Assembly: GCF_963576675.1 (NCBI RefSeq)
Contig: NC_088910.1
Coordinates: 30,692,531-30,756,530 of the forward strand
Source: Euphorbia lathyris
Taxonomy: Eukaryota > Streptophyta > Magnoliopsida > Malpighiales > Euphorbiaceae
Length of the DNA stretch: 64,000 nucleotides
Direction of reading: 5' to 3'
In this document: positions 8,276-23,400 of the stretch, piece by piece
How positions within the stretch are numbered: the first letter of the stretch is position 1
Layout of the letters: every line of letters starts with the position of its first letter
Translations under genes and position numbers: made by a program
Notes under the pieces: model-generated
What the model saw: only the letters and a program-made list of their open reading frames with translations
Databases searched by the model: none
What the model was told of the DNA's origin: nothing

Positions 8276-8476
8276 AGGGGGCGAGCCTTGGCGCAACGGT
8301 AAAACGTTGTTGTCGTGTGACCAGAGGTCACGGGTTCGAGTCTTAGGAGCGGCCTCTTGCCAATTAAATTGACAAGGGAAGGCTTGCCCCCAATACACCC
8401 TTGTGGTGGGACCCCTCCCCGGACCCTCGCTCAGCGGGGACACGTAATGCGACCGGGCCGCCCTTTTTTTTTTTTT
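8276..8476 (+). mobile_element. tRNA-derived SINE of the plant Au type
   Basis: A 201-bp element with an A-box region (GGCGCAACGGTAAAACG) and a perfect B box (GGGTTCGAGTC at about 8331), then the GCCTCTTGCC, CCCTTGTGGTGGG and CCTCCCCGGACCCTCGC blocks known from Au SINEs, ending in a T run. It is flanked by a perfect 17-bp target duplication (ATAACATACACTTATAA at 8259-8275 and 8477-8493). It is transcribed by RNA polymerase III in its family and mobilised by LINE machinery; activity here is unknown. Confidence 0.9.
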
Positions 8477-9212
8477 ATAACATACACTTATAACTATGTG
8501 TATACATAAATTACCTTAAAACCAATGGGACATCACAATCAAGATTTTTCGCCATTCCATCTTCAGAGGACAAAAACATGGAAGAACATCAATGGCGTCT
8601 AGAATTTCTTTGGGTATGTACTAATTTTTATTTTTTGTTTTTTCCCCCCTTTTTTTTATTGTCGCGCCTTTTGGATTCTGGAGTATTTGAGGAGTATTTC
8701 TCTCTCTACTAGTTTTAAAGAGAGAAATGGTCATGGAGATACAGGAGAAAAAGAATAAGGGTAAAATGAGTATTTTAGGTTTTAAAAAATTGGCAAGGGA
8801 AGGCTTGCCCCCAATACACCCTTGTGGTGGGACCCCTCCCCGGACCCTCGCTCAGCGGGGACACGTAATGCGACCGGGCCGCCCTTTTTTTTTTTTTTAT
8901 AACATACACTTATAACTATGTGTATACATAAATTACCTTAAAACCAATGGGACATCACAATCAAGATTTTTCGCCATTCCATCTTCAGAGGACAAAAACA
9001 TGGAAGAACATCAATGGCGTCTAGAATTTCTTTGGGTATGTACTAATTTTTATTTTTTGTTTTTCCCCCCTTTTTTTTATTGTCGCGCCTTTTGGATTCT
9101 GGAGTATTTGAGGAGTATTTCTCTCTCTACTAGTTTTAAAGAGAGAAATGGTCATGGAGATACAGGAGAAAAAGAATAAGGGTAAAATGAGTATTTTAGG
9201 TTTTAAAAGGGA
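8371..9212 (+). repeat. Two-copy tandem duplication of about 421 bp
   Basis: Copy 1 is about 8371-8791 and copy 2 about 8792-9212, nearly identical by eye apart from homopolymer lengths. The unit starts inside the SINE (GACAAGGGAAGG), runs through the SINE 3' end, the right-hand target duplication and about 300 bp of flank. The second copy therefore holds only the 3' half of the SINE. The duplication is later than the SINE insertion and recent. The junction shows only a few bases of shared A/G sequence. Confidence 0.9.
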
Positions 9213-9613: not shown

Positions 9614-9796
9614 GTAAAAAGTCTGTGCCCTTCCAGTGGCCTTTTCTCTCTCTTTCCCTTCTAGGTTGAGCCCAACAGTGTGAAAGGTTTTTGCCGATCT
9701 GGTCATCCCCATCATCTACCTTGTTTTTTCCTGTGTCTTCCCATCACTCTTCTCTGTATAGATTTGCTCACCTAATACAGGTTTACCCCCAAGGGT

Positions 9797-10295
9797 ATGG
9801 CCGACCACATAGAGGACCAGCTAGCTAAGATTAAGCTAACAGACTCGGAAGAGGTCATTACAGAACTGGCTAGCAAACCACGAGGGGAGACCGAAATTCA
9901 GGTAAAGTCTTGCCTCATTGGAAAAGTTATGACCCATAAACCTCTCAATCTCAAGGGTATGGCTCAGGCTTTTCAAGTCGGGTGGAGAACGCAGAGCTTT
10001 CAATTAAAAGACCTGGGTAATAATTTGTTCCAGTGCGAGTTTGAAATAAGCAGAGACAAGGAAAAGGTCCTAAATGAAGGACCATGGCACTTTGAGCGTC
10101 AGCTGGTCATATTTCGCGAAGTTAAGGGGGATGAGCAGCTAACTGATCTTAACATGCACCAATGCGAATTCTGGGTACGGATCATCAATCTACCGCTTAA
10201 CTATCGCGATGAGACATCGATTACTACAGTAGCTGAGAGGATTGGAGAAGTTAGAAAACTTGACAATGCTAGCATAGGATCCTGGGACAGCTATG
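9797..10295 (+). pseudogene. LINE 1 ORF1, first part (DUF4283)
   Basis: The ATG follows a leader at 9614-9796. Residues 1-166 contain the DUF4283 fold typical of plant LINE ORF1 proteins (LIGKVMTHKPLNLKGMAQAF, WRTQSFQLKDLGNNLFQCEF, GPWHFERQLVIFREV), the presumed RNA-binding part. The frame runs into the LTR element at codon Tyr-166 (GAC AGC TAT, then the insertion), and reading beyond 10295 is LTR sequence. It continues at 19373. Confidence 0.85.
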
Positions 10296-12073
10296 TGATG
10301 TGCGTGGCGGCTATGGGTAGTGCTTACGAAATATATATTATAATAAGTGCGTTACGACTATGGATGTGATCTTCCTAAATGCTCTATCTCTACTAGACGC
10401 TACTACTTAGGGGCAAGTGTACCCCGTCGTATCAAGTAATAATCCGGTTAAGACCGGGTATCGAATCCACGGGATTTATAACTACAAGTATTAAACGACT
10501 CGGTTTTATACGTTATCTAAGCGATGAATACTTTGAGTTGATTCGGGAGAACAACTACAAACTACTCCTAACTACGGGTGAGACAAATTTATATAACAAA
10601 AACTCTACGAAATGATATGGATGGCAATAAGTTATAAATATGACAAACAATGACTTCCAATATATATACGGTTAATGATTTGCTCTTGCAATGACGACTA
10701 CGTGTAGTGTGACCGACCCGTGAGGTACTTAGACTACGTGGTTCCTAGTCAAGGCGTGTCTAATGCTTGGGATCAGAAATTAGGGCCCGTAAGTTCCGTG
10801 GCTTATCAATTCCTACGGTTTCCGGAGCGTCACTTTCGGTAAGGCAACACCTATATGAATCCCTAAAGATAGCCCGAATGGCGTCGGAAATCGCGTTCCC
10901 CTACACAATAATCAATTACGAATATCAAAACAAGCAACAAACATCAACACACATATAGAAAAAGAGATTATGAATCATAAATTATAAATATGGAGAATGT
11001 AAATATGGAATACAACCAAGCCTAGTACATAGGAAGAGTGCAAGCTAATTAGCAAGTGAAAAGGGAAGAATCCACCCTCGGAACTAGCTAACCGGACTCA
11101 AGGCCGTCTCTTAGGACTTGGAGGTGGAGCTTTCGAGCTTGGTGAACGGAGATGGAATGGAACTTTAACGGAATGCTGGAATCAACGAACAAGCTCTCAA
11201 GGTGATAGAGTTTTGCTATGTAAAATAAAATCTAAAACTAAGTAGCAAGAGCTTAATCTATAACAAGAGTTGTATGTCAAAAGCTATCTAAATGAGTGCT
11301 AGGCACTCTTATTTATACACATCAAGCTAGGGGTAAAATTGTAAGTTTACAAGGTGCAAGCATGGAGGAACAGGATTTTCTGCAGATTTCCCATGACACG
11401 CCTCGCGTATGGTGGAGTGCGCCCCGCGTATTGACCCATTCCGTCAGAAATCTCCTGCATGTGGACCAAATTCAGATCTTGTTGTCTCAACCACGCCCCG
11501 CGTAAACTGGGGTACGCTCCGCGTGGTTGAGCTTCTGAGATTTAATGGCCTGAAATGAGTCTTTTACGCCTCGTGTGGCCTGGAAGACGCCTCGCGTATA
11601 TGAGTCCCTGGAGTTTTAGATTGAAGAACTTCCCATATACGCCCCGCGTGTAGGTTGGGACGCCCCGCGTGACAGTAGTTGACTTGGAAGACCATGCAGT
11701 CTGACATTTATGATTGAGCTTATCATTGCTCATACGCCCCGCGTGTAAGGTAGGACGCCCCGCGTGTCAGTGGGTAGATCCCACGTGGTGCCTGCAGATT
11801 GAGCAATCATTTCTGACTTGATGTTCCACGCCCTGCGTATGTCGGTGGATCTTTGCTCCTTACTCGTACCTGAAATACAATTCTCGAGAGCCGAGTTAGC
11901 TTGACGTTTTATTTTCTAAATTAATCAAAAATAAGGAAAATTAACCGAAAGTAAGAAATTTATTTTTATTTCATTATTTTATTAAAACATTCTATTTTTG
12001 CAATTAAACTTATTTATTTAATCCAAAATTAACCGTAAATCACGCTAAAAGATAGGGACGAAATGCCTTATCA
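10296..12073 (-). repeat. Left LTR (3' LTR in element orientation)
   Basis: 1778 bp, bounded by TGATG on the left and TTATCA on the right, the inverted form of TGATAA...CATCA. It is nearly identical to the right LTR apart from scattered substitutions, and it keeps a segment of about 183 bp (about 11810-11990) that the right LTR has lost. It holds eleven ACGC-N3-GCGT dyads (separate entry). Confidence 0.9.
11397..11839. repeat. Phased ACGC-N3-GCGT dyad array, left LTR
   Basis: Eleven 13-bp sites (for example TACGCCCCGCGTG) start at 11397, 11418, 11492, 11513, 11565, 11586, 11638, 11659, 11733, 11754 and 11827. The arms ACGC/GCGT are kept while the 3-bp centre varies (CCC, CTC, TCC, CCT). The first ten form five pairs, each exactly 21 bp apart; the pairs are 95, 73, 73 and 95 bp apart and the last single site is 94 bp on. 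The 8 bases between paired sites are G-rich but differ from pair to pair. Confidence 0.95.
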
Positions 12074-12085
12074 AACCTCCTCGGA
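12074..12085 (-). other. Probable polypurine tract
   Basis: On the minus strand, CCGAGGAGGTT stands directly before the LTR start TGATAAGG. About 25 bases further upstream is CTTGAGGACAAG, a word I associate with the region before the polypurine tract of Athila/Tat elements. It would prime plus-strand DNA synthesis. Confidence 0.65.
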
Positions 12086-13927
12086 CTTTAAAGTTTTACT
12101 TGTCCTCAAGTAAAAGAAATCGAAAGACAAAGGATTGAGATTATTAAGAAACAAACCGTCGGTTGGTTTTACCAAGTGCGTGATCCCAAAGCTAAAATTT
12201 TATGCAAAGTTTTCGGCAAGTACCTACGCAAACAAATGAGTGACCAAAACTTGTTTGAAACCTCCATGATCAAATTTAATAGGCAATATTAACGGGGTCG
12301 ATTATCTTTTGAGAACCTGAAAGTACCTCACTAAGGGATTTCACTCTTACGATCAAATTTTGGTGGGTCGGTGTTTTTGCACTCTCCTTTGCACTTACTC
12401 GAAGTCACTTTGAGTTTGCATTTTCATCCGGGTTTTTCCTCATATGTTATGGTCTAGGCAATATTAAAAATGAACCCGGATGGGGGTTGTAATGTGGGTG
12501 GCTTTTTAGTGGTTAATTTTTAGAAACTCGGGTTCAAACACCATTTTGATGATCGCACTGTGTTTTTATTTTGGCCTTAGCAAGTTCGTAAAATATAACT
12601 CGAAATTGCTCGGGTGGAGTTTGAGAATGCCTTTTGCTCTCTTTTATGTTTTTCTTTTTCTTTTTGTTTTGAGAGCGGCACAAAAACGATTTCGAAAGCT
12701 TATGGTGCTTACTTATCAAGGCCTTGGCTTATTTCGGGTAGTTTTGGTGCGATTTGATTTTGTTGGTATTTAAACAAGAGGAAAAAGGGTTAAATGTTAA
12801 AAGGGTATTAACAAAAAAGTCGGTTAATAGGCTCGAGGGGGTTTCCTAGAGGTTAATGAAAAAGAGAAAAATAAGTTAAGAAAAGAATTAGCCTAAGTGG
12901 GTTCATTTTATCGTCTATTGCCATTTTTACCAAAATAAGTGTACTTAACCCGGTATTAGGTGCAAACTCTATGAGTCGAGTGAAGTCAAAGCTCTCGAAA
13001 AATTATGAAAGAAATAGAGTTCTCGTACGAACTCTTTTAGGCTCAAAAATACCTCACAAAATTTCGGGTTAAATTGTGTACGTTCAAGTTCTCGTCAAAT
13101 TTTCAACTATCCCGTCTCTATTGCCTTTTTAAATTTCATTATGGAGATGACCTGTGGGTTAGGACTCAAAGTTTTTGTTTAGTACGAACATAGGCTTTGC
13201 ATAAATTCTATAACTTTAGAATCAAGACTAAAATTTCTTAATCAAACTGATCCTTTGTGTTAACGTTTTTTCATTTAAGAACAAATAGCGGAACTTTTAA
13301 TTAATTTCCGAGGGAGGTAGTGTGTCGGAAAAAATTTAAGAATCAATAAATTAGTTTAATTATTTTGTTGTTTATTTGATTTTTATTTTTGTTTTTGTTA
13401 GTGCAAAACAAACGGTAAGTGCGGGATTGCACGGCCCTCCGCGTTATTAAAATGACGTCTATTCCAAGGATGTCGCAAAAGAAAGGAAAAACAAAAACAA
13501 AAATAAAGATGGAATTTAAAAAGGGACCTTGAAGGTTAGGTCCTACGCGTGGCGTGCCCAGGGGGGCGCCCCGCGTAGGAGGTGCGTTTTAAGTTTATTT
13601 TAGCTAGAGACTCAGATACGCGGGGCGCACTAAGAGGGGCGCCCCGCGTGTTCCGAGCTCTGGACTAGTTAGAAGGGGAAAAAGCGAGGCACGCGGGGGC
13701 GTAGAATGGGATACGCCCCGCGCGTCCATTATTACCCATGCATAAACAGAAAACGAACATACGAAACAAAAACAAACACAAAGAGAAATTATAAGAAGGA
13801 AAAAAAGATAGATATATTAATTAAAGGAGAACGAAAGTACAAGAAAACATAAAAAAATAACATAAAAGCATGAACATGAAAAGGAAAAACATAAAACAAA
13901 GGAAAACATAAAACAAAGAAAGGGAAA
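12086..13927. other. Non-coding internal region of the LTR element
   Basis: About 1.8 kb between the ATHILA-type ORF and the polypurine tract. No frame with a domain is seen. It includes the dyad cluster at 13544-13725 and a long stretch without features. Confidence 0.6.
13544..13725. repeat. Dyad cluster, internal region (3 pairs)
   Basis: Sites start at 13544 and 13565, 13617 and 13638, and 13690 and 13712. The pair offsets are 21, 21 and 22 bp (the last has one extra G in the first site), and the pair-to-pair step is 73 bp twice. In the second and third pairs the first site has a GGG centre and the second a CCC centre, so each pair is an inverted repeat, unlike the direct pairs in the LTR. 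Confidence 0.9.
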
Positions 13928-15188
13928 CTAGGGTGGAGGCGGAGGAGGATTGCCGTGGATGTTGAAGTAGGAGGAGAAGGTGTTGGTGAGGGCGTCGAAG
14001 TGAGCATCGAGATGGGCCCGATCCTCACGCCTTTGGGCCTCAATGGAGTTGAAGCGAGTGATGAAAGTGGAATGGTCCATGAGGCGATTAGCCTCAAGGG
14101 TGTCAAAACGGGTGTTGAGATTGGCGAATTGGGAGTCGAAATGGGCGCGATCGGCACGTTGGTGACCCTCCAAGGCGTCCAACCGAGCATATATAGAGTT
14201 GAAGTCATGGTTGGGCGGTGGACTAAAGTTTAGGCCCATGTCCGAGTCCTCGTCCTCGTCCTCGTCCTCTTGGGGTTGGGCTGACCCCGAACTTTCACCC
14301 GGGCCGGAGGTGGGGCGCTTGAGTGATTTGAAGGCGTTTTTGTCCAAGGGCCGCGGCTCCAAGCTGGGAAGGCGGTCAAGGGCAGCTTCGCCAAGAGCGG
14401 AGGTGGTGAAGATGGTGATGAGATGGCCCAACCCGAGTTTGCCACGTTTCCGGGTAGGCATGTGGTGGAGTTGGATGGCCACGAGGTAGGAGAGGTCGTA
14501 AGTGAGTCCATTTGCACAACAATAGAGGGCCAAAAGCTCATGCTTATTGACCTTAGTGGACTCGGACTTCCCCGAGAAGTAGAAGGAGATGAAGCATGGA
14601 GAAGTTGGAGGGTTGGATCGCGGATGCAGGCCGGGCGGAGGTTGGAGACGTCATAATCATCGGACCCGGTGATGGAGGTCCAAAAATCATGAGGGGAGAC
14701 ACCCTCAGGCCAATGTGCTATGTCGTCCTCCGCTTGACGGGTCAAATGGTTGCGGAGCCATTGTGTGTCGATGGAGAAAGGATGGTTGTGAAGGCGGAAG
14801 TTGAAGAGGGCGGCTCCGGGAACCCATTAGATTCGAGGGTGGTGTAGAACTCCACAACCAACGAAGGATAAATGTGTTGGCATGCACGATAGTGATCAAG
14901 CCAATTAAGAGTGCGGAGGCGGTCTTCGAAAGCACCTCCGAGGTTGTAGCGATCGAGAGTGCTACGGTTGATGTATAAGAGCTCCATGATGTGGGCAGCA
15001 GAGAGTGTTTGGTAGGATTGGGCTTCTTCTTCGGTGAGAAGATGGAAAGGAGCCCGATATTGGCGGGTGAGTGGCGGTGTTCCTTCTCGTTCGGGGGGTG
15101 GTGGTGATTGATGTTGTTGGGAACGAGAGGAGCGGGCCCGAGTGGACCGCGGGGGGCGCATGTCGGCTGCATGCTTGCGTCTTGCCAT
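13928..15188 (-). pseudogene. ATHILA-type ORF (second ORF of the LTR element), frameshifted
   Basis: The minus-strand start at 15188 (MARRKHAADMRPP) follows a TATA-less leader. The frame carries a basic/proline-rich N-terminus, then a conserved region (LLYINRSTLDRYNL, EDRLRTLNWLDHY, YPSLVVEFYTTLES) resembling the ATHILA ORF-1 family. It shifts frame near 14820 and again near 14590. The remainder (ALYCCANGLTYDLSYLVA, TRKRGKLGLGHLITIF) is followed by an acidic DEDEDEDE run and a segment with periodic RADRAHFDSQF / REDRAHLDAHF repeats that looks coiled-coil. Athila elements carry such an ORF downstream of pol, sometimes called env-like; its function is not established. Two frameshifts make it non-functional here. 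Family assignment is by motif memory, not search. Confidence 0.6.
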
Positions 15189-15329
15189 GGTGGTAGTGAA
15201 GGATTGAGAAAGATTGTAGGAAGAGTGTGGGGAGTAAGAGTGAGTTGTGGGGGAGAAGAAGGAAAAAATGGAGGAGTATATATAGGGGAGGAGTGGGGAA
15301 TCCAAGTAAAACTCAGATTCCCAGAGGGG

Positions 15330-15436
15330 TACGCGAGGCGTGAAAGGGCCACGCCACGCGTATCCCACCTCCTGATCTTTATTTGACATAAAAACGGAAC
15401 GGCGCGCGGGGCGTGTGGGGAAGCACGCCTCACGTA
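15330..15436. repeat. Dyad cluster upstream of the ATHILA-type ORF
   Basis: Sites start at 15330, 15350, 15403 and 15424: pair offsets of 20 and 21 bp and a 73-bp step. Centres are GAG, CAC, GGG and CTC. The last site has ACGT instead of GCGT in its right arm. Confidence 0.85.
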
Positions 15437-15715
15437 TCGCAACTCCTGGCCATAAATTGGTGGGAGATATGGGTTTTGATTGCTGATTTAATGTTTTTAT
15501 TATTTTTTAAAGAGTAATTAATAGGGTGGTTAAAACAAAAATAATAAAGAGGGAAGTTTAAGAAGTTTGAATTTGAAAAGGTGAAGGGTGATTGGAGGGA
15601 AGAAGAGGTGGAGTGGATAAGTAGGAAAGACTTTTGGGGAAGAGGAGAGAGTGGTGGGAAAGGTGGAAGAGGAAAAGGCTGCCATGGGGAGTTGCAATTC
15701 GCAACTCCCCTAGGA

Positions 15716-15863
15716 TACGCGGGGCGTTTATTTGGGAGAGAGCTAACTGCCGAAGGTTACGCGGGGCGTGGTAGGAGGGACGCCCCGCGTAACACGTCTT
15801 TTATTTCGAAAATGGGACAGACACGCAGCTGCGCGGGGCGTACTGGTGTGTACGCTCCGCGTG
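15716..15863. repeat. Dyad cluster between gag and the ATHILA-type ORF
   Basis: Sites start at 15716, 15758, 15779, 15830 and 15851. Steps are 42 (twice 21, with the middle site missing), 21, 51 and 21. The pairs 15758/15779 and 15830/15851 are inverted (GGG centre then CCC or TCC centre). Confidence 0.85.
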
Positions 15864-16093
15864 GCTTATTTTTTTGGATTAAAAATGGGATTTGTTTTTC
15901 TTTTGATTTATGAGACGGGAGAAAATAAAAATAACTAAAAAGAGAAAACTAAAAATAACATAAAAGAGAGAAATATAAAAATAAATAAAAATAAGGTGAA
16001 AAACGATTATGATACATATAAACAAGGGGTTTGAGAAATTCAAACCGATGCTATGTTTAGAGTCGGAGAGGCTCGACTCTCTCATGCGGCGGC

Positions 16094-17530
16094 TTACTGC
16101 AGGCTGTCCGAGTTGGAACTCGACGGGTCCGAACTTCTACTATTTAGGAGAGTTATCGCCTGTCCGGACTCTCTATTTTTGCCCCGCGGGTTTTGCTCGG
16201 TGTTTGCCGGGAGGGTTCCTAATGGCCTCTCCTGTTGCTGACGATTCAAGTGGGCTACTTGGCGGCTAAGGTCCCTGCAAAACACCTCACTATCGGCAAG
16301 ACGGGTTAAGATATCCTTTAACAAGGACGTTACCGACTGGCCATGCACGTTGTCGGGAGGCTGAGTATTCCGACCACCGGGCACGGTTTGTGATTGTCCT
16401 AGCCCGTTTTCCCGATATTCTTGATTAAAGTCGGGTGGGGGCCTCAATACATTATTATTATTGCCATACGACAAGTTAGGGTGTTGGTACCGAGGCCTTC
16501 ATCCGCTGTTATTATTATTGTGGTGGTGTGAGTAGGAGTTCGGGTTAGGGTTGTACCTTTGATTGCCTCCTATGTAACTTACATTTTCGGTGTCGCCGGC
16601 GAAAGGGCTACCGGCTTGGCAATTAAGTCCGTCATGATCTCCACCATAATGATTGCACATCAGGACCTGTGCAACTTTGTTAAGGCTCAACTGGGCTATC
16701 AAAGCGTCAAGTTTTTTATTCATTTCCGCCATGGAACTTTTCGGAGCCTCTTTCTCCACGGCGAACGTTTGATGTCGCGAGGGTCCGGCAAGCCGATCTT
16801 CTTGCCACTGTACGCTTTTCCTTGCGAGCTCGTGGATGAGCTCATATGCTTCACTGGCCGACTTCCTAAACAGGTCCCCACCTGCTGCAGAATCCACGGT
16901 GGCACGATTAGTAGGTGTTAATCCGTGATAAAAATTACTTACCAAATCGTGCTTGGGGATATCGTGGTGTGGGCAGCTTCGAAGCAACTTCCAGAATCTT
17001 GCCCAAGCCACATGAAGGGCTTCGTGTTCGAGCTGCCGAAAGGTAGTGATGTCGTTCCTCAACTTAACTATTTTGGAAGGTGGGAAGTAGTAGGAAAGGA
17101 ACTCCTTCTCAAGCTCCTCCCATGATGTAATCGAACCCGCCTCCAACGAGTGCAACCACTCCAATGCTTGTCCTGTCAAAGAGAAAGGAAACAACTTTAG
17201 TCGGACGGCCTCAACCGGAACACCGTTTTACCGAGAAGTTTCGGCACACATAAGAAATTTATCGAGATGTTCGTTAGGGTTTTCATGGGGTTCCCCTCCG
17301 AACTGGCCAAGTTGTTGGATGAGTTGGATCATGCTAGTCTTGATTTCATATGTGTTGGCTGGAATGGTGGGGGCAACGGTTCCGTTGCGGTTTTGAGGGC
17401 GATGCGGAGCAAGAATCTCCATCATTGAGCGCATGTCATTGCCTCCACCATTGCAGTTGTTATTCACGGGTTGCACCGGTGGCCTTTGGTTCACCTCGGG
17501 TTGGTTAGCTTCATTGTTGAGGTTTGCCAT
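16094..17530 (-). pseudogene. Gypsy/Athila gag with two nonsense codons
   Basis: The minus-strand frame from ATG at 17530 (MANLNNEANQPEV) stays in one frame to 16094, broken by two single stop codons: TAA at 17228-17230 and TGA near 16499. It matches a Retrotrans_gag capsid region: IQQLGQFGGEPHENPNEHL, then FPFSLTGQALEWLHSL, LRNDITTFRQLEHEAL and ANRATVD/AAGG-like words, the hallmarks of Athila gag. The region after it is Asn/His-rich with no clear zinc knuckle. It would form the virus-like particle. The gag start lies about 220 bases downstream of the primer-binding site. Both stops are explained by single substitutions, so decay is recent. Confidence 0.85.
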
Positions 17531-17748
17531 TTTCTCTCTCCGAATCCTACAAAGAGTACGTTAAATTTCAAGATCAATAGGAACGAGAATATCACTCCGA
17601 GATCGGGTGTGCATAAAATAAATAAATGGAAAGAATTATAAACAAAGAAGAATATTGTTAGTAACAAGTATATATAAACAATTTATACAAAGATAATGCT
17701 TAGACTAACAATAAAACGTTTTTGTCTAATATTGCAAGAAATTATAAA

Positions 17749-17766
17749 TCCCCGGCAACGGCGCCA
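17749..17766 (-). other. Primer-binding site for tRNA-Asp
   Basis: The plus strand reads TCCCCGGCAACGGCGCCA, the 3' end of plant tRNA-Asp including CCA, so the element's minus strand is an 18-base complement. It lies six bases inside the 5' LTR. Use of tRNA-Asp is typical of Athila elements. Confidence 0.9.
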
Positions 17767-17772
17767 AAAACT

Positions 17773-19367
17773 TGATGTGCGTGGCGGCTATGGGTAGTGC
17801 TTACGAAATATATATTATGATAAGTGTGTTACGACTATGGATGTGATCTTCCTAAATGCTCTATCTCTACTAGACGCTACTACTTAGGGGCAAGTGTACC
17901 TCGTCGTATCAAGTAATAATCCGGTTAAGACCGGGTATCGAATCCACGGGATTTATAACTACAAGTATTAAACGATTCGGTTTTATACGTTATCTAAGCG
18001 GTGAATACTTTGAGTTGATTCGGGGAACAACTACAAACTACTCCTAACTACGGGTGAGACAAATTTATATAACAAAAACTCTACGAAATGATATGGATGG
18101 CGATAAGTTATAAATATGAAAAACAATGACTACTAATATATATACGGTTAATGATTTGCTCTTGCAATGACGACTACGTGTAGTGTGACCGACCCGTGAG
18201 GTACTTAGACTACGTGGTTCCTAGTCAAGGCGTGTCTAATGCTTGGGATCAGAAATTAGGGCCCGTAAGTTCCGTGGTTTGTCAATTCCTACGGTTTCCG
18301 GAGCGTCACTTTCGGTAAGGCAACACCTATATGAATCCCTAAAGATAGCCCGAATGGCGTCGGAAATCACGTTCCCCAACACAATAATCAATTACGAATA
18401 TCAAAACAAGTAATAAACATCAACACATATATAGAAAAAGAGATTATGAATCATAAATTATAAATATGGAGAATGTAAATATGGAATACAACCAAGCCTA
18501 GTACATAGGAAGAGTGCAAGCTAATTAGCAAGTGAAAAGGGAAGAATCCACCCTCGGAACTAGCTAACCGGACTCAAGGCCGTCTCTTAGGACTTGAAGG
18601 TGGAGCTTTCGAGCTTGGTGAACGGAGATGGAACGAAACTTTAACGGAATGCCGGAATCAACGAACAAGCTCTCAAGGTGATAGAGTTTTGCTATGTAAA
18701 ATAAAATCTAAAACTAAGTAGCAAGAGCTTAATCTATAACAAGAGTTGTATGTCAAAAGCTATCTAAATAAGTGCTAGTCACTCTTATTTATACACATCA
18801 AGCTAGGGGTAAAATTGTAAGTTTACAAGGTGCAAGCATGGAGGAACATGATTTTCTGCAGATTTCCCATGACACGCCTCGCGTATGGTGGAGTGCGCCC
18901 CGCGTATTGACCCATTCCATCAGAAATCTCCTGCATGTGGACCAAATTCAGATCTTGTTGTCTCAACCACGCCCCGCGTAAACTGGGGTACGCTCCGCGT
19001 GGTTGAGCTTCTGAGATTTAATGGTCTGAAATGAGTCTTTTACGCCTCGCGTGGCCTGGCAGACGCCTCGCGTATATGAGTGCCTGGAGTTTTAGATTGA
19101 AGAACTTCCCATATACGCCCCGCGTGTAGGTTAGGACGCCCCGCGTGACAGTAGTTGACTTGGAAGACCATGCAGTCTGACATTTATGATTGAGCTTATC
19201 ATTGCTCATACGCCCCGCGTGTAAGGTAGGATGTCCCGCGTGTCAGTGGGTAGATCCCACGTGGTGCCTGCGGATTGAAACATTCTATTTTTGCAATTAA
19301 ACTTATTTATTTAATCCAAAATTAACCGTAAATCACGCTAAAAGATAGGGACGAAATGCCCCAATCA
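17773..19367 (-). repeat. Right LTR (5' LTR in element orientation)
   Basis: 1595 bp, about 183 bp shorter than the left LTR because of one deletion near 19275, between GATTGA and AACATTC. The outer end reads CCCCAATCA where the left LTR has CCTTATCA, a small later change. Otherwise the two LTRs align throughout with few substitutions by eye. Confidence 0.9.
18873..19242. repeat. Phased dyad array, right LTR
   Basis: Ten sites start at 18873, 18894, 18968, 18989, 19041, 19062, 19114, 19135, 19209 and 19230, reproducing the left LTR spacing exactly. The eleventh site is lost in the deletion. Site five keeps GCGT where the left LTR has GTGT; site ten has decayed to GATGTCCCGCGTG, a C-to-T change at a CpG. 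Confidence 0.95.
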
Positions 19368-19372
19368 CTATG

Positions 19373-20427
19373 TTCGAGTGAGAGTTCTTGTGGATGTGTC
19401 CAAACCTCTCATAAGGGGGGCAAAGATCAAAACTGACAAAGGTGTTGTAGTATGGGTTCCATTCAAATATGAGAAACTCCCAGGGTTCTTTTACTGGTGC
19501 GGGAAGATAGGGCATAATCATTCTGATTGCAGTGAAGTACCCGAAGATTTTCAAGGGGAAGACTGGCCGTATGAACAATCCCTACGTGCAACACCGATCA
19601 AACTTCGAATGGTAAAATTCGACTCAAAGTCGCAAAAAGTGGTTGAAGCTTTCTCCAATAAACAAAGTCTTGTCCGGCGGAAATTAGCAACTGATATAAC
19701 GACTGACAGAACAAGCTGTGAGAAAGGGGCGACAGGGAACGAGCACCATGACGATTGCACAGCCATGGAGATTGTGGAGGACCTCCCTCTAAACAGTCAG
19801 GGGCAGAAAAGTCTTTTTGTGGGAGAATCACATGTAGGAACAGACCATATGGCTCCAATAGGCTCAAGGTTTCACGACTGTCAAAGGTTAATCTCCCCAA
19901 AAAATAACTTGGAAGTGGACATGATTGGTGATGATATGCAAACAGATTCAGCCAATGAAGAAATTCACCTACCCCAAAACTTTTTTTCTGAAGTGAACAA
20001 CGGGACAAAGCTTTTAAAAGGTTACCAGGACAACAAACCAATTAACCCACCTGACGTCCTATTCCCACGACCCAAAACCCATGAAGAACCCCCAAACCTT
20101 ACAAACACTAAACCCCTGATCCTGAACACCATACCCCAATCCCTTAGCTTCCTACTACCTCCAACCATTGAGCTCAGGGGTCCCACCATTAATAAGCAAA
20201 AATTAAAGAAATTGGCCAGAGAAAAGAAGGAAAATACTATGGAGGAATCTATTGTAGAAAGTCCAGGGCAGCTGGGAAACGTTATCAAAAAACGGAAAGG
20301 AATAGAAAGGGAGCATGATACTGAAACTAAACAAGCAGGAGAGGGTAAAAGAATCAGAGGTACTAAAGAGGGGATGGCAACTAATGAAAGGGCAGAGGCT
20401 GCGAGTCAGCCCCACCCTCAGCAATGA
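19373..20427 (+). pseudogene. LINE 1 ORF1, second part (zinc-knuckle region)
   Basis: It continues ORF1 in frame after the LTR element: VRVRVLVDVSKPLIRGAKIK, then the zf-CCHC_4 region (LPGFFYWCGKIGHNHSDC). The usual first Cys of the knuckle is Phe here (FYWC where CYXC is normal), so zinc binding is probably lost. The C-terminal 270 residues are polar and low in motifs, ending in a basic Lys/Glu-rich tail at 20427. The stop TGA overlaps the ORF2 start by four bases (ATGA-type overlap at 20424-20427). Confidence 0.8.
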
Positions 20428-23400
20428 GGATGATCAGTTGTAACGTTCGAGGTTTGGGTAACCCTCGGACGGTCCGAGCGCTCTCTCATCTGATGAGAAA
20501 CAATTACCCAGCTTTGGTCTTTTTAATGGAGACGAAGCTACGAAAGGAGGAAATAAAAAGTGTAAGCAACAGATTTCAGGGTTATGCAGCTTTTGGGATG
20601 CACTGTGTAGGAAGGTCAGGAGGTTTGTTGTTAATGTGGAAGCAGGACTTGGGCATTCAGATACTAGGGTTCACGCAACATTGTATCCACTTTGGGCTTG
20701 AAGATGAGAAAGGACAGTTGGTATGGAGGGGTACTGGGATATATGGGTGGCCGGAGGCGCGGAATATACACCTAACTTGGTGCTTAATGTCGGCCCTACA
20801 TCGGTGGGAAACACAACCCTGGATGTGTATATGGGACTTCAATGAAATCATGTATTCAAAGGAAAAAGAGGGGGGCAATGAGCCAGACTATAAGAGCATG
20901 GAAGAGTTTAGAAACTGCCTAGACAAGTGTGACCTATTCGACGTAAAATTTGTGGGTGCTCCTCATACGTGGTCAAATGGAAGAAGAGGAGCCGCAGTAG
21001 TCCGGGAGAGACTAGATAGAGCAGTATGCCAAGTTCAATGGGAGATCCTCTTCCCCAATACAGTGGTAACACATTTAGCTCGAACGGCTTCTAATCACTG
21101 TCCCTTATTACTTGACACAGAAGGCACCATTAGGAAAAAATCAAGACCTTTCCGATTTGAAAATATGTGGGTGCGTGAGCCTACATGCCGAGAAGTAATC
21201 ACAAGTGCATGGAATGATACTATGATAACGGGAGAAAATAACGTTTGTGAGAAGTTTGGTCACTGTAGTAAAAAACTGAGTCAATGGAACAGGGAGAAAT
21301 TTGGTCACGTTGGAAAAACTTTGAAATCCCTATACAAGCAGCTCATGTCGGCTGAGAACCTTCCTATGTGCGACAAAAGAGATGAAGTGGTGAAGAACTT
21401 AAGGTGTCGGATTGAACAACTCCAAGAAGCCGAGGAGGTAATATGGAAACAACGAGCCCGGGTCAATTGGCTTCGGGAGGGAGACCGCAACACGAAGTAT
21501 TTCCACTCAAAAGCCAACTCCAGAAGGAAAACGAATCAGATTACAAGGCTTCAAGATAAGGATATGGTGTGGAACGAGAAAGATGAGGAGATCGAGAAAA
21601 CTATAGTTGATTACTTTCAGAAGCTCTTCTCAACGTCAAATCCAGTGAAACGTGTGGAGGTGTTAGAGGATGTAGATCGGACGCTCTCAGAGGAACAAAT
21701 TGAGTCTCTATCTCCACCGTTCGAAGCTAGTGAGGTTGAGATGGCTCTTCGGGGCACTGATAGCTCAAAATCCCCGGGTCCCGACGGGATGTCAGGTATG
21801 TTTTTCAAAACCTATTGGGATGTCATTGGCATGGAGGTTACAAAGTTTGTTCTGGATATTCTAAATGGGAACCAGCCTATCCCAGAAAAGATGAATCACA
21901 CTTACATTACCCTCATTCCGAAAGTCAAAAACCCGAGTAAACTGAAAGAGTAGCGCCCAATTAGCCTATGTAACGTGGTCTACAAGCTTGTGTCCAAGAC
22001 ATTAGCAAACCGGCTAAAACATTCTCTTCAGGCCATCATCCACCCTACTCAAAGTGCTTTTGTTCCAGGGCGGCTTATTACAGACAATGCGCTCATAGCC
22101 TTCGAACTTTTTCATTCCATGAAACATAGGATCATTGGAAAGAAGGGGTTTTGTGCTTTGAAACTTGACATGAGCAAAGCCTACGACCGGGTCGAATGGG
22201 GTTCCTAAGAGACATAATGGTGGCTATGAAATTTCCCGACAGATGATGTGCTCTCATTCAGCAATGCATTAGTTCAGTTGCCTTCTCTTTCCTTATAAAT
22301 GGGGTTCTAAAAGGCTTTGTGAAACCGACTAGGGGTCTGCGACAAGGGGATCCACTTTCACCCTATTTGTTTATTATCTGCGCTGAAGGGCTCTTAGTAC
22401 TGATAAGGAAAGCTGAACTAAACAGGCAAATTCATGGAATTCGGGTAAGCAAATCTAGCCCCTCAATCTCACATTTGTTTTTTGCAGATGATTCCTTGAT
22501 CTTTTTTAGGTCCATAGTGACAGAATGTACCAAAGTAAAGCAGATCTTGCATCTTTATGAAGCTATGTCTGGACAGAAAATAAATTTTGAGAAAACAGAA
22601 GCCACATTTAGTAGAGGGGTTAGCCATGAAAGCAAAGAAAGGCTTCTGTCAACACTTGCCATCTAAGAGGTGGCTCAATTATTAAAATATCTAGGCCTCA
22701 CAGCAATGATTGGGAAATCAAAGAAATCCCTGTTTAATTTTCTCAAAGAAAGGCTGGCGAAACGGATCGGAGGGTGGCAAGAGAAAAATCTCTCACGGGG
22801 AGGCAAGGAGGTTCTTATCAAGTCCATAGCCCAAGTGGTACCATTATATGTCATGAGCTGCTTCTTACTTCCAAAGACCTTTTGTGAGGAATTCCAGCAA
22901 CAAATTGCTCGATTTTGGTGGAGTAACGATCCAAACAACAAGAAAATACATTGGAGCAAGTGGGATAAATTATGTACTTCAAAACAGAATGGGGGCTTGG
23001 GGTTCAGGAACCTTTATGCTTTCAATATGGTACTCTTAGCAAAACAAGTATGGAGGCTCCTCGAAACCCTAAATTCCTTATGTGCCCAAGTTTTCAAACA
23101 CAAGTATTATCCCAGACAGGAGCTGCTAAATGCAAAGATCGGCTTTTGCTCGAGCCATGTCTGGCGCAGCATCATACAAGCACGATCCATTATCCTCGAA
23201 GGGTCCTCGTGGAGAATAGGGAATGGACACAGTGTGGATATCTTCGACCACAGGTGGATTGAAGGAGTTCCGTGTAACAGACCGCTTGTCCTCTTCCAAG
23301 ATACACTATCCAGGAAAGTCTCTTGCTTGATAAATTTCAATGAGTTTTTATGGAAGACGGAACTATTGGCCCAATGTTTTTCACCTGAGGTGGTGGCCGC

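Follow-up and report, generated by a model that had tools for sequence, protein, structure and literature searches.

A small number of enhancers and bacterial promoters are known to use a helically phased operator grammar. In a 64-kb stretch of Euphorbia lathyris DNA (hereafter the window), the long terminal repeats (LTRs) of a retroelement carry many copies of an 11-bp dyad, ACGC-N3-GCGT, whose spacing places them along a single face of the double helix. The locus raises the question of what keeps such an arrangement in a mobile element, and which protein, if any, it serves.

The element and its dyad sites

The dyads belong to an ATHILA-type Ty3/gypsy retroelement on the reverse strand (Table 1), which is flanked by a 5-bp target duplication, CTATG (10291-10295 and 19368-19372). 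Alignment of its two LTRs over 1588 bases shows 32 differences (K2P 0.0205). The gag region is of the Ty3/gypsy type (PF03732, 83.1 bits with a cut-off of 24.1), and a domain search recognised no pol in this copy (10296..19367). Pieces of the broken ATHILA-type ORF give a weak Transposase_32 match at most. The intact ORFs of all three relatives score 22.6-30.7 bits with the Pfam family ATHILA ORF-1 (PF03078, cut-off 20.2), which upholds the description of the element as Athila-like in a first-pass annotation of this DNA. The sequence after the 5' LTR contains TGGCGCCGTTGCCGGGGA, a candidate primer site, possibly of the Asp-tRNA type.

The surroundings of the element hold other repeats and ORFs. 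A LINE-like ORF with DUF4283 and a zf-CCHC_4 zinc knuckle is split by the element (window positions 9776-10369 and 19342-20427) and is followed by a long ORF at 20388-21953. At 8366-9208 a 421-bp unit is present in two head-to-tail copies with 99% matches.

Table 1. Features of the dyad-bearing element in the window.
Feature	Position	Strand	Remarks
ATHILA-type Ty3/gypsy retroelement	10296..19367	-	LTR ends TG...CA; LTR alignment and sequence reading
3' LTR (TG...CA)	10296..12073	-	LTR alignment and sequence reading
TATAAATA, predicted TATA box of LTR promoter	11310..11317	-	
3' LTR phased dyad array, eleven dyads	11398..11838	-	motif search and sequence
3' LTR dyad starts	11398, 11419 (one mismatch), 11493, 11514, 11566 (one mismatch), 11587, 11639, 11660, 11734, 11755, 11828		
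Internal dyad cluster D	13545..13723	-	between ATHILA ORF and 3' LTR
ATHILA-type extra ORF	13928..15188	-	frame broken in window copy; intact in other copies
TATATATA, TATA box of predicted internal promoter	15277..15284	-	
Internal dyad cluster C	15331..15435	-	two inverted pairs in window; immediately upstream of internal TATA box
Internal dyad cluster B	15717..15862	-	
gag region (Retrotrans_gag)	16094..17560	-	broken into pieces in window copy
5' LTR	17773..19367	-	without counterpart of 11803-11980
5' LTR phased dyad array	18874..19241	-	eight exact dyads and degenerate ones

Exact dyads number 24 in the window, where dinucleotide shuffles lead one to expect 0.07; nine lie in the 3' LTR, eight in the 5' LTR and seven in the three internal clusters. 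The first-pass annotation had listed eleven ACGC-N3-GCGT sites in the 3' LTR. Nine of these are exact and two carry one mismatch each (GCGCCCCGCGT at 11419 and ACGCCTCGTGT at 11566). Every start had been placed one base low (11398 is correct, not 11397), and the offsets of 0, 21, 95, 116, 168, 189, 241, 262, 336, 357 and 430 bp proved exact on recheck. Tandem Repeats Finder did not call the 3' LTR block as a tandem repeat, and a search of a plasmid collection with the array gave no match. Each dyad contains two or three CpGs. Because the centre of the dyads in the window LTRs is pyrimidine on the + strand each time (CCC, CTC, TCC, CCT), the site has a direction.

Pair spacing and helical lattice across the genome

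Pairs of exact dyads were counted throughout the assembly (1.02 Gb, 33 contigs), with the patterns read backwards as the control. At a start spacing of 21 bp there are 19,187 pairs and at 20 bp there are 3,763, whereas spacings of 11-19 bp together hold 127; the backwards pattern gave 0 in all three classes. Spacings of 22-51 bp together hold 3,113 pairs (backwards pattern 10), a count that takes in the shoulder of the 52-bp class and triple arrays.

Within the sampled arrays, 20-bp pairs tend to occupy the same slots within a family, not random ones. Two loci about 2.7 kb apart (L060 and L061, at C1:4965300 and C1:4968100) have at least three dyads in a row at 21 bp.

The members of a pair are also ordered. 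Among 21-bp pairs genome-wide with all-purine and all-pyrimidine centres, 2,069 run purine-then-pyrimidine and 1 runs pyrimidine-then-purine. The 3-bp centre, which the first-pass annotation had called variable, is thus oriented. Either the dyad has to be read as more than a symmetric object or the inverted pairs descend from few founders.

Longer spacings were measured in 53 sources, which yielded 418 neighbour intervals of 12-200 bp between exact sites. Seven of the loci sampled (L085-L091) were picked by ORF similarity; most of the sampled loci, all on contig 1, were selected for holding pairs, so that the 21-bp class in the sample is partly chosen (176 of the 418 intervals measure 19-22 bp, 146 of them 21 bp). 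Of the remaining 242 intervals, 218 deviate by no more than 2 bp from a multiple of 10.43 bp (116 expected), and the other 24 are off the lattice (for example, 57 bp in L090 and 48 bp in L083). With one modal length for each of 48 groups of similar spacers, R was 0.64 at 10.5 bp, and the 28 distinct modal lengths alone gave R 0.45 (p 0.0025). When dyads were masked, 91 arrays fell into nine groups without detectable similarity (E 1e-3), and one representative from each of the nine gave 32 intervals with R 0.81. Nine array groups are not nine families, because two of them at least, an 18-array group and L019_8566, occupy the place of internal clusters in ATHILA-type copies. The dissimilar groups may also descend from a remote common ancestor. 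Of the 32 intervals, most measure 50-53 bp, and in most groups successive pairs are simply 51-53 bp apart. The lattice therefore rests on few lengths, and the strongest statement is that of a 21/52 grammar with further steps of 30, 40, 70-74 and 84 bp.

The helical phasing proposed from a single LTR is accordingly not the chance of one copy, as seen both in the genome-wide spacing counts and in the intervals from 53 sources. In a periodicity test against jittered sets, the observed R was reached in 0 of 5,000 cases for the 48 spacer groups and in 0 of 10,000 for the nine dissimilar groups.

Arms and spacing between divergent copies

The arms and their spacing had been described as conserved, and the centre and spacers as variable. 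Close copies do not bear this out, for in 36 rows the arms are not more conserved than the spacers, and arm changes are mostly of the kind produced by CpG decay. Similarity to the array had been the criterion for choosing these copies, and the comparison was judged to measure decay after insertion; divergent copies were therefore compared too. There the arms and the spacing are kept. In nine divergent LTR arrays (median identity 0.72), identity is 0.909 in the arms, 0.749 in the centre, 0.685 between pairs and 0.550 inside pairs (p 1.6e-16 by columns). The 10-bp spacer inside pairs is the most variable DNA of these LTRs, and its length is nearly fixed. Conserved arms together with a variable spacer of fixed length point, at the level of sequence, to selection on arms and phasing. 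The difference between arms and in-pair DNA is also at odds with a uniformly conserved 73-bp satellite, an outcome that the first-pass annotation had named as damaging to its proposal. Cluster C, upstream of the ATHILA ORF, behaves similarly in 15 rows, with identities of 0.880 in the arms, 0.731 inside pairs and 0.675 between pairs (p 3.5e-7 by columns), and the DNA from its last dyad to the TATA box is also well kept (0.842).

Insertions and deletions were compared between ten LTRs, the pairs compared being non-independent. Their total frequency is similar in the array and downstream (8.7 vs 8.0 per kb, at identities of 0.77 vs 0.87), and 1-bp events make up 118 of 177 in the array and 156 of 243 downstream. 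Indels of at least 3 bp fall on the lattice, as whole turns, in 41 of 52 cases in the array vs 14 of 68 in the downstream LTR. Since overall frequencies are alike and 118 of the 177 array indels are 1 bp long, only the larger shifts appear to be filtered. Indels that freely break the phasing had been named as a second damaging outcome; this was not found for indels of at least 3 bp, although those of 1 bp occur in the array no less often than outside it. Among the 41 on-lattice array indels, 25 measure 20-21 bp and can be unit losses. Compared with the window, 19 of 35 close copies contain an additional 21-bp unit at 11827, and 2 of the 35 have one such unit fewer near 11400. Spacing lengths also shift by one or three turns (84 to 74, 72 to 41).

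Placement of the arrays ahead of TATA boxes

In the sense of the element, the last dyad of the 3' LTR precedes the predicted TATA box of the LTR promoter by 91 bp, start to start, and the array ends 80 bp before it. The survey covered 49 arrays, each with purine-rich centres on the strand read in 80% or more of its dyads. A TATA motif occurs within about 200 bp downstream on the same strand in 40 of them, at 89-91 bp from the last dyad start in 32 and at other distances in 8; in the remaining 9 none was found within about 200 bp downstream. The purine-rich strand is the sense strand of the element in the window. In the L063 family, a gag-like ORF lies on the strand opposite to that with the purine-rich centres.

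A second TATA box stands 57 bp after the last dyad of cluster C and 96 bp before the ATG of the ATHILA ORF (15188). Most relatives have three inverted pairs in cluster C vs two in the window, and in most copies the successive steps measure 21, 51-53, 21, 52-53 and 20 bp. The distance from the start of the last dyad to TATATA is 56-57 bp in 14 of 15 copies and 52 bp in L024; the ATG, where seen, follows the internal TATA box by about 95 bp. Cluster C and TATATA are thus predicted to form an internal promoter ahead of the ATHILA ORF. The resulting layout of two predicted promoters with shared sites, one in the LTR and one for an accessory gene, is read from dyads and TATA boxes in the sequences of 14 of 15 copies.

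Arrays in other element lineages

Dyad arrays are also present outside elements of the window type. L014 and L015 have in common a 752-bp block (94.8%) with TG...CA ends, and both contain a dyad array, that of L014 consisting of two exact and four one-mismatch dyads. In L014 the block lies downstream of an ORF that matches SH3_Tf2-1 (52.0 bits, cut-off 30) and falls slightly short of the cut-off for rve (31.3 against 32.6); on these matches we take it as a chromovirus-like integrase. In L015 the block is followed by a candidate primer site, presumably of the initiator-Met type, and then by a gag that barely aligns to the window gag. A further case is L098, which combines the L063 array with an array 4.7 kb away, the two being taken as one element; in the L063/L098 interior no ATHILA ORF was found, and a long ORF there gave a sub-threshold protease match only. 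The gag of L007 is 31% identical to the window gag over 134 residues. As L014/L015 and L063/L098 use the same grammar, it is not private to one clade. This favours a shared, probably host, factor; its chief competitor is a trans-acting factor encoded by ATHILA elements.

The FISH oligonucleotide Oligo-ls350, in the excerpted text of a chicory/Asteraceae study (PMC11598091), contains TACGCGGGGCGTG followed a few bases on by CACGTG. On this partial account, the dyad motif may occur in repeats of other plants.

The ATHILA ORF and loci without room for pol

We scored 106 ATHILA ORF candidates out of 8,167 in the genome, many of them without stops. Ten open copies, one of them partial, gave a median dN/dS of 0.20 over 45 pairs (median dS 0.61), and the ORF is under purifying selection. 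Dyads are present in all seven copies picked by ORF similarity. Six copies from other PF03078 lineages, each read over 1.4-2.0 kb outside the LTRs, contained no dyads even with one mismatch allowed; four of these six start alike and look like one lineage. Among ATHILA ORF copies, then, the dyads track one clade, as would be expected of an element-encoded binder. No homologues of the ORF protein were found at E 1e-3 among 7,996 candidates scored, or at E 1 among PDB sequences, and the Pfam and PDB sequence searches found no DNA-binding domain in it. The AlphaFold model, at a mean pLDDT of 39.5, is useless as a structure; it shows long C-terminal helices.

Gag and an internal cluster are both visible in 11 loci. 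In nine of them (L008, L011, L012, L016, L021, L022, L023, L024 and the window) the intervening DNA leaves no room for pol, and L018 and L019 have long ORFs there. The short-gap loci keep gag and, mostly, the ATHILA ORF and its predicted promoter, as though the element needed these in cis.

Discussion

The first-pass annotation knew of no comparable LTR architecture. One exists in Sireviruses, which are Ty1/copia elements, and it is the closest known kind in the portions of the literature consulted. The account in PMC2829016 (2010) describes repeated motifs that are palindromes of 10-20 bp with dyad symmetry, number 8-32 per element in LTRs and linkers, form CpG islands and are called Sirevirus-specific; one cluster of them precedes a conserved TATA box in the LTR, and another precedes the gene in the env position. 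That layout, many palindromic motifs before the LTR TATA box and before an env-position gene, is found here. The differences are that the host is a Ty3/gypsy element with gag and an ATHILA ORF, that the core is ACGC/GCGT rather than CGG-CCG, and that pair spacing, helical phasing and one-way orientation do not appear in the excerpted Sirevirus account. What is new, as far as that account extends, is therefore the superfamily, the motif, the phasing and the orientation rule.

Two other systems resemble parts of this one. The anti-silencing VANC proteins of VANDAL DNA transposons have as targets a 9-base motif arrayed in one orientation (PMC5735166, in the portion available), and there too a short motif is dense in the non-coding DNA of a plant transposon that encodes an accessory protein. 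Those targets are reported to grow by tandem repeat formation, VANC6 provides a precedent for a motif common to an unrelated element, and the same partial account, unlike our data, contains no helical lattice. In foamy viruses, according to the excerpt of PMC8670036, Tas acts on two promoters, that of the LTR and an internal one serving a gene in the 3' part, much as one site module here lies upstream of both predicted promoters. The present host is a plant element and not a retrovirus, so that the likeness is one of layout and implies no homology. Among the matches listed, as judged by titles and the starts of abstracts of open papers, there were no such dyads in ATHILA and no helical phasing in an LTR.

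Known plant factors were compared with the dyad. CAMTA proteins have CGCG as their core, whose absence from dyads with AGG or CCT centres speaks against them as the binder. VOZ transcription factors bind as dimers to GCGT-N7-ACGC, according to the section of PMC6321167 available, and share the letters of the half-sites. The VOZ site does not fit, because its half-sites stand in the opposite order and with other spacing (here ACGC-N3-GCGT within a dyad, and GCGT-N10-ACGC between pair members).

The arms, the 21-bp pair spacing and a lattice of roughly 10.4 bp are kept while the intervening DNA changes; the same dyad module stands before a second TATA-box sequence ahead of the ATHILA ORF; and LTR families dissimilar in sequence use the same grammar. 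We lean, by a little, towards reading the array as a promoter-proximal enhancer, along which a dimeric, probably host-encoded, DNA-binding protein would occupy neighbouring sites. This putative protein would bind the dyads, contact its neighbours along one face of the helix as a dimer and activate transcription of the element. It would be encoded by the host rather than by the element, and, with one activator in common, genomic RNA and ORF transcript would be produced in concert. The strict orientation of the dyads counts against this reading, as a symmetric dimer does not explain it.

The binder might instead be the product of the element's own ATHILA ORF, either in a self-activating two-promoter circuit comparable with Tas or in anti-silencing comparable with VANC. 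We consider this unlikely, though deserving of real weight. The dyads stand 56-57 bp before the ORF's own TATA box in 14 of 15 copies, they occur in seven of seven ORF-similar copies and in none of six other PF03078 copies outside the LTRs, the ORF is under purifying selection (median dN/dS 0.20), nine of 11 loci are short of pol while keeping gag and, in most cases, the ORF, and the poor structural model suggests long C-terminal helices. Against it, the same dyads occur in chromovirus-like L014/L015 and in L063/L098 without such an ORF, which activation in trans could explain, and the protein gave no DNA-binding domain and a model confidence of 39.5. That the array acts as a rotational nucleosome-positioning or bent-DNA element in which GC-rich dyads alternate with AT-rich steps every half turn, seems to us improbable. 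In several families, for example at window 11398-11838 and L086 32-210, AA/TT/TA/AT steps in the spacers are indeed most frequent about half a turn away from the dyads, with antiphase R values of 0.19 (nine LTR rows), 0.47 (five rows of cluster C) and 0.18 (12 other loci pooled), and the period peaks at 10.5-11 in two of three sets. These rows are related, however, L064 and L072 alone show nothing, the strongest AT-step period in the LTR family is about 20 bp, and the signal is weaker than the dyad lattice and may accompany binding. Bending would call for steps rich in GC; it would not require that a single 8-letter sequence stay at 91% between LTRs that are 72% identical, or that the centre keep a fixed orientation.

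The dyads could be a target of host silencing, by a repressor or by guided methylation, kept only by spreading with the elements; their two or three CpGs and their decay by C-to-T and G-to-A changes fit such a role, but a silencing target should vanish in active lineages and the dyads are the best kept part of divergent promoters, which makes this quite improbable. Neutral tandem duplication, in which 73-bp units were amplified and the spacing was inherited, draws on the sum 21 + 52 = 73, on copies that differ by 21-bp units, with 25 of 41 on-lattice indels at 20-21 bp, and on the growth of VANC targets in that way as reported in the excerpt of PMC5735166. Yet spacers are no longer similar while arms are, Tandem Repeats Finder made no call, and lengths also change by one or three turns, so that neutral duplication is already largely contradicted and, in our estimate, very improbable. 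Each dyad could also form a hairpin in RNA or single-stranded DNA, with a 4-bp stem and a 3-base loop. Among 129 degenerate partners, however, nine pair columns had changed on both sides (six of them still paired) vs 14.2 expected by independence; there is thus no excess of compensatory changes, helical phasing would be meaningless for hairpins, and we give this idea hardly any credence.

If the enhancer reading is extended, several plant Ty3/gypsy branches may have settled on one enhancer grammar, in which oriented 11-bp dyads are paired at exactly two helical turns, pairs lie 3, 4, 5, 7 or 8 turns apart on one face, and only one order of inverted pairs is allowed. Within the ATHILA clade, the module would also drive the internal ORF promoter in a two-promoter circuit, and the regulator, perhaps the ORF product itself, would represent a new class of DNA-binding protein that controls retrotransposons. 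We put this broader proposal forward tentatively, as a possibility on the doubtful side. A natural, replicated test of a phased operator grammar, carried out over thousands of mobile copies in more than one lineage, would be unusual, and the effects of half-turn versus whole-turn shifts could be read from natural variants. The role of the ATHILA ORF becomes testable through its own predicted promoter with shared sites, and the array offers a concrete bait for the protein that would switch on many of the retrotransposons of this plant.
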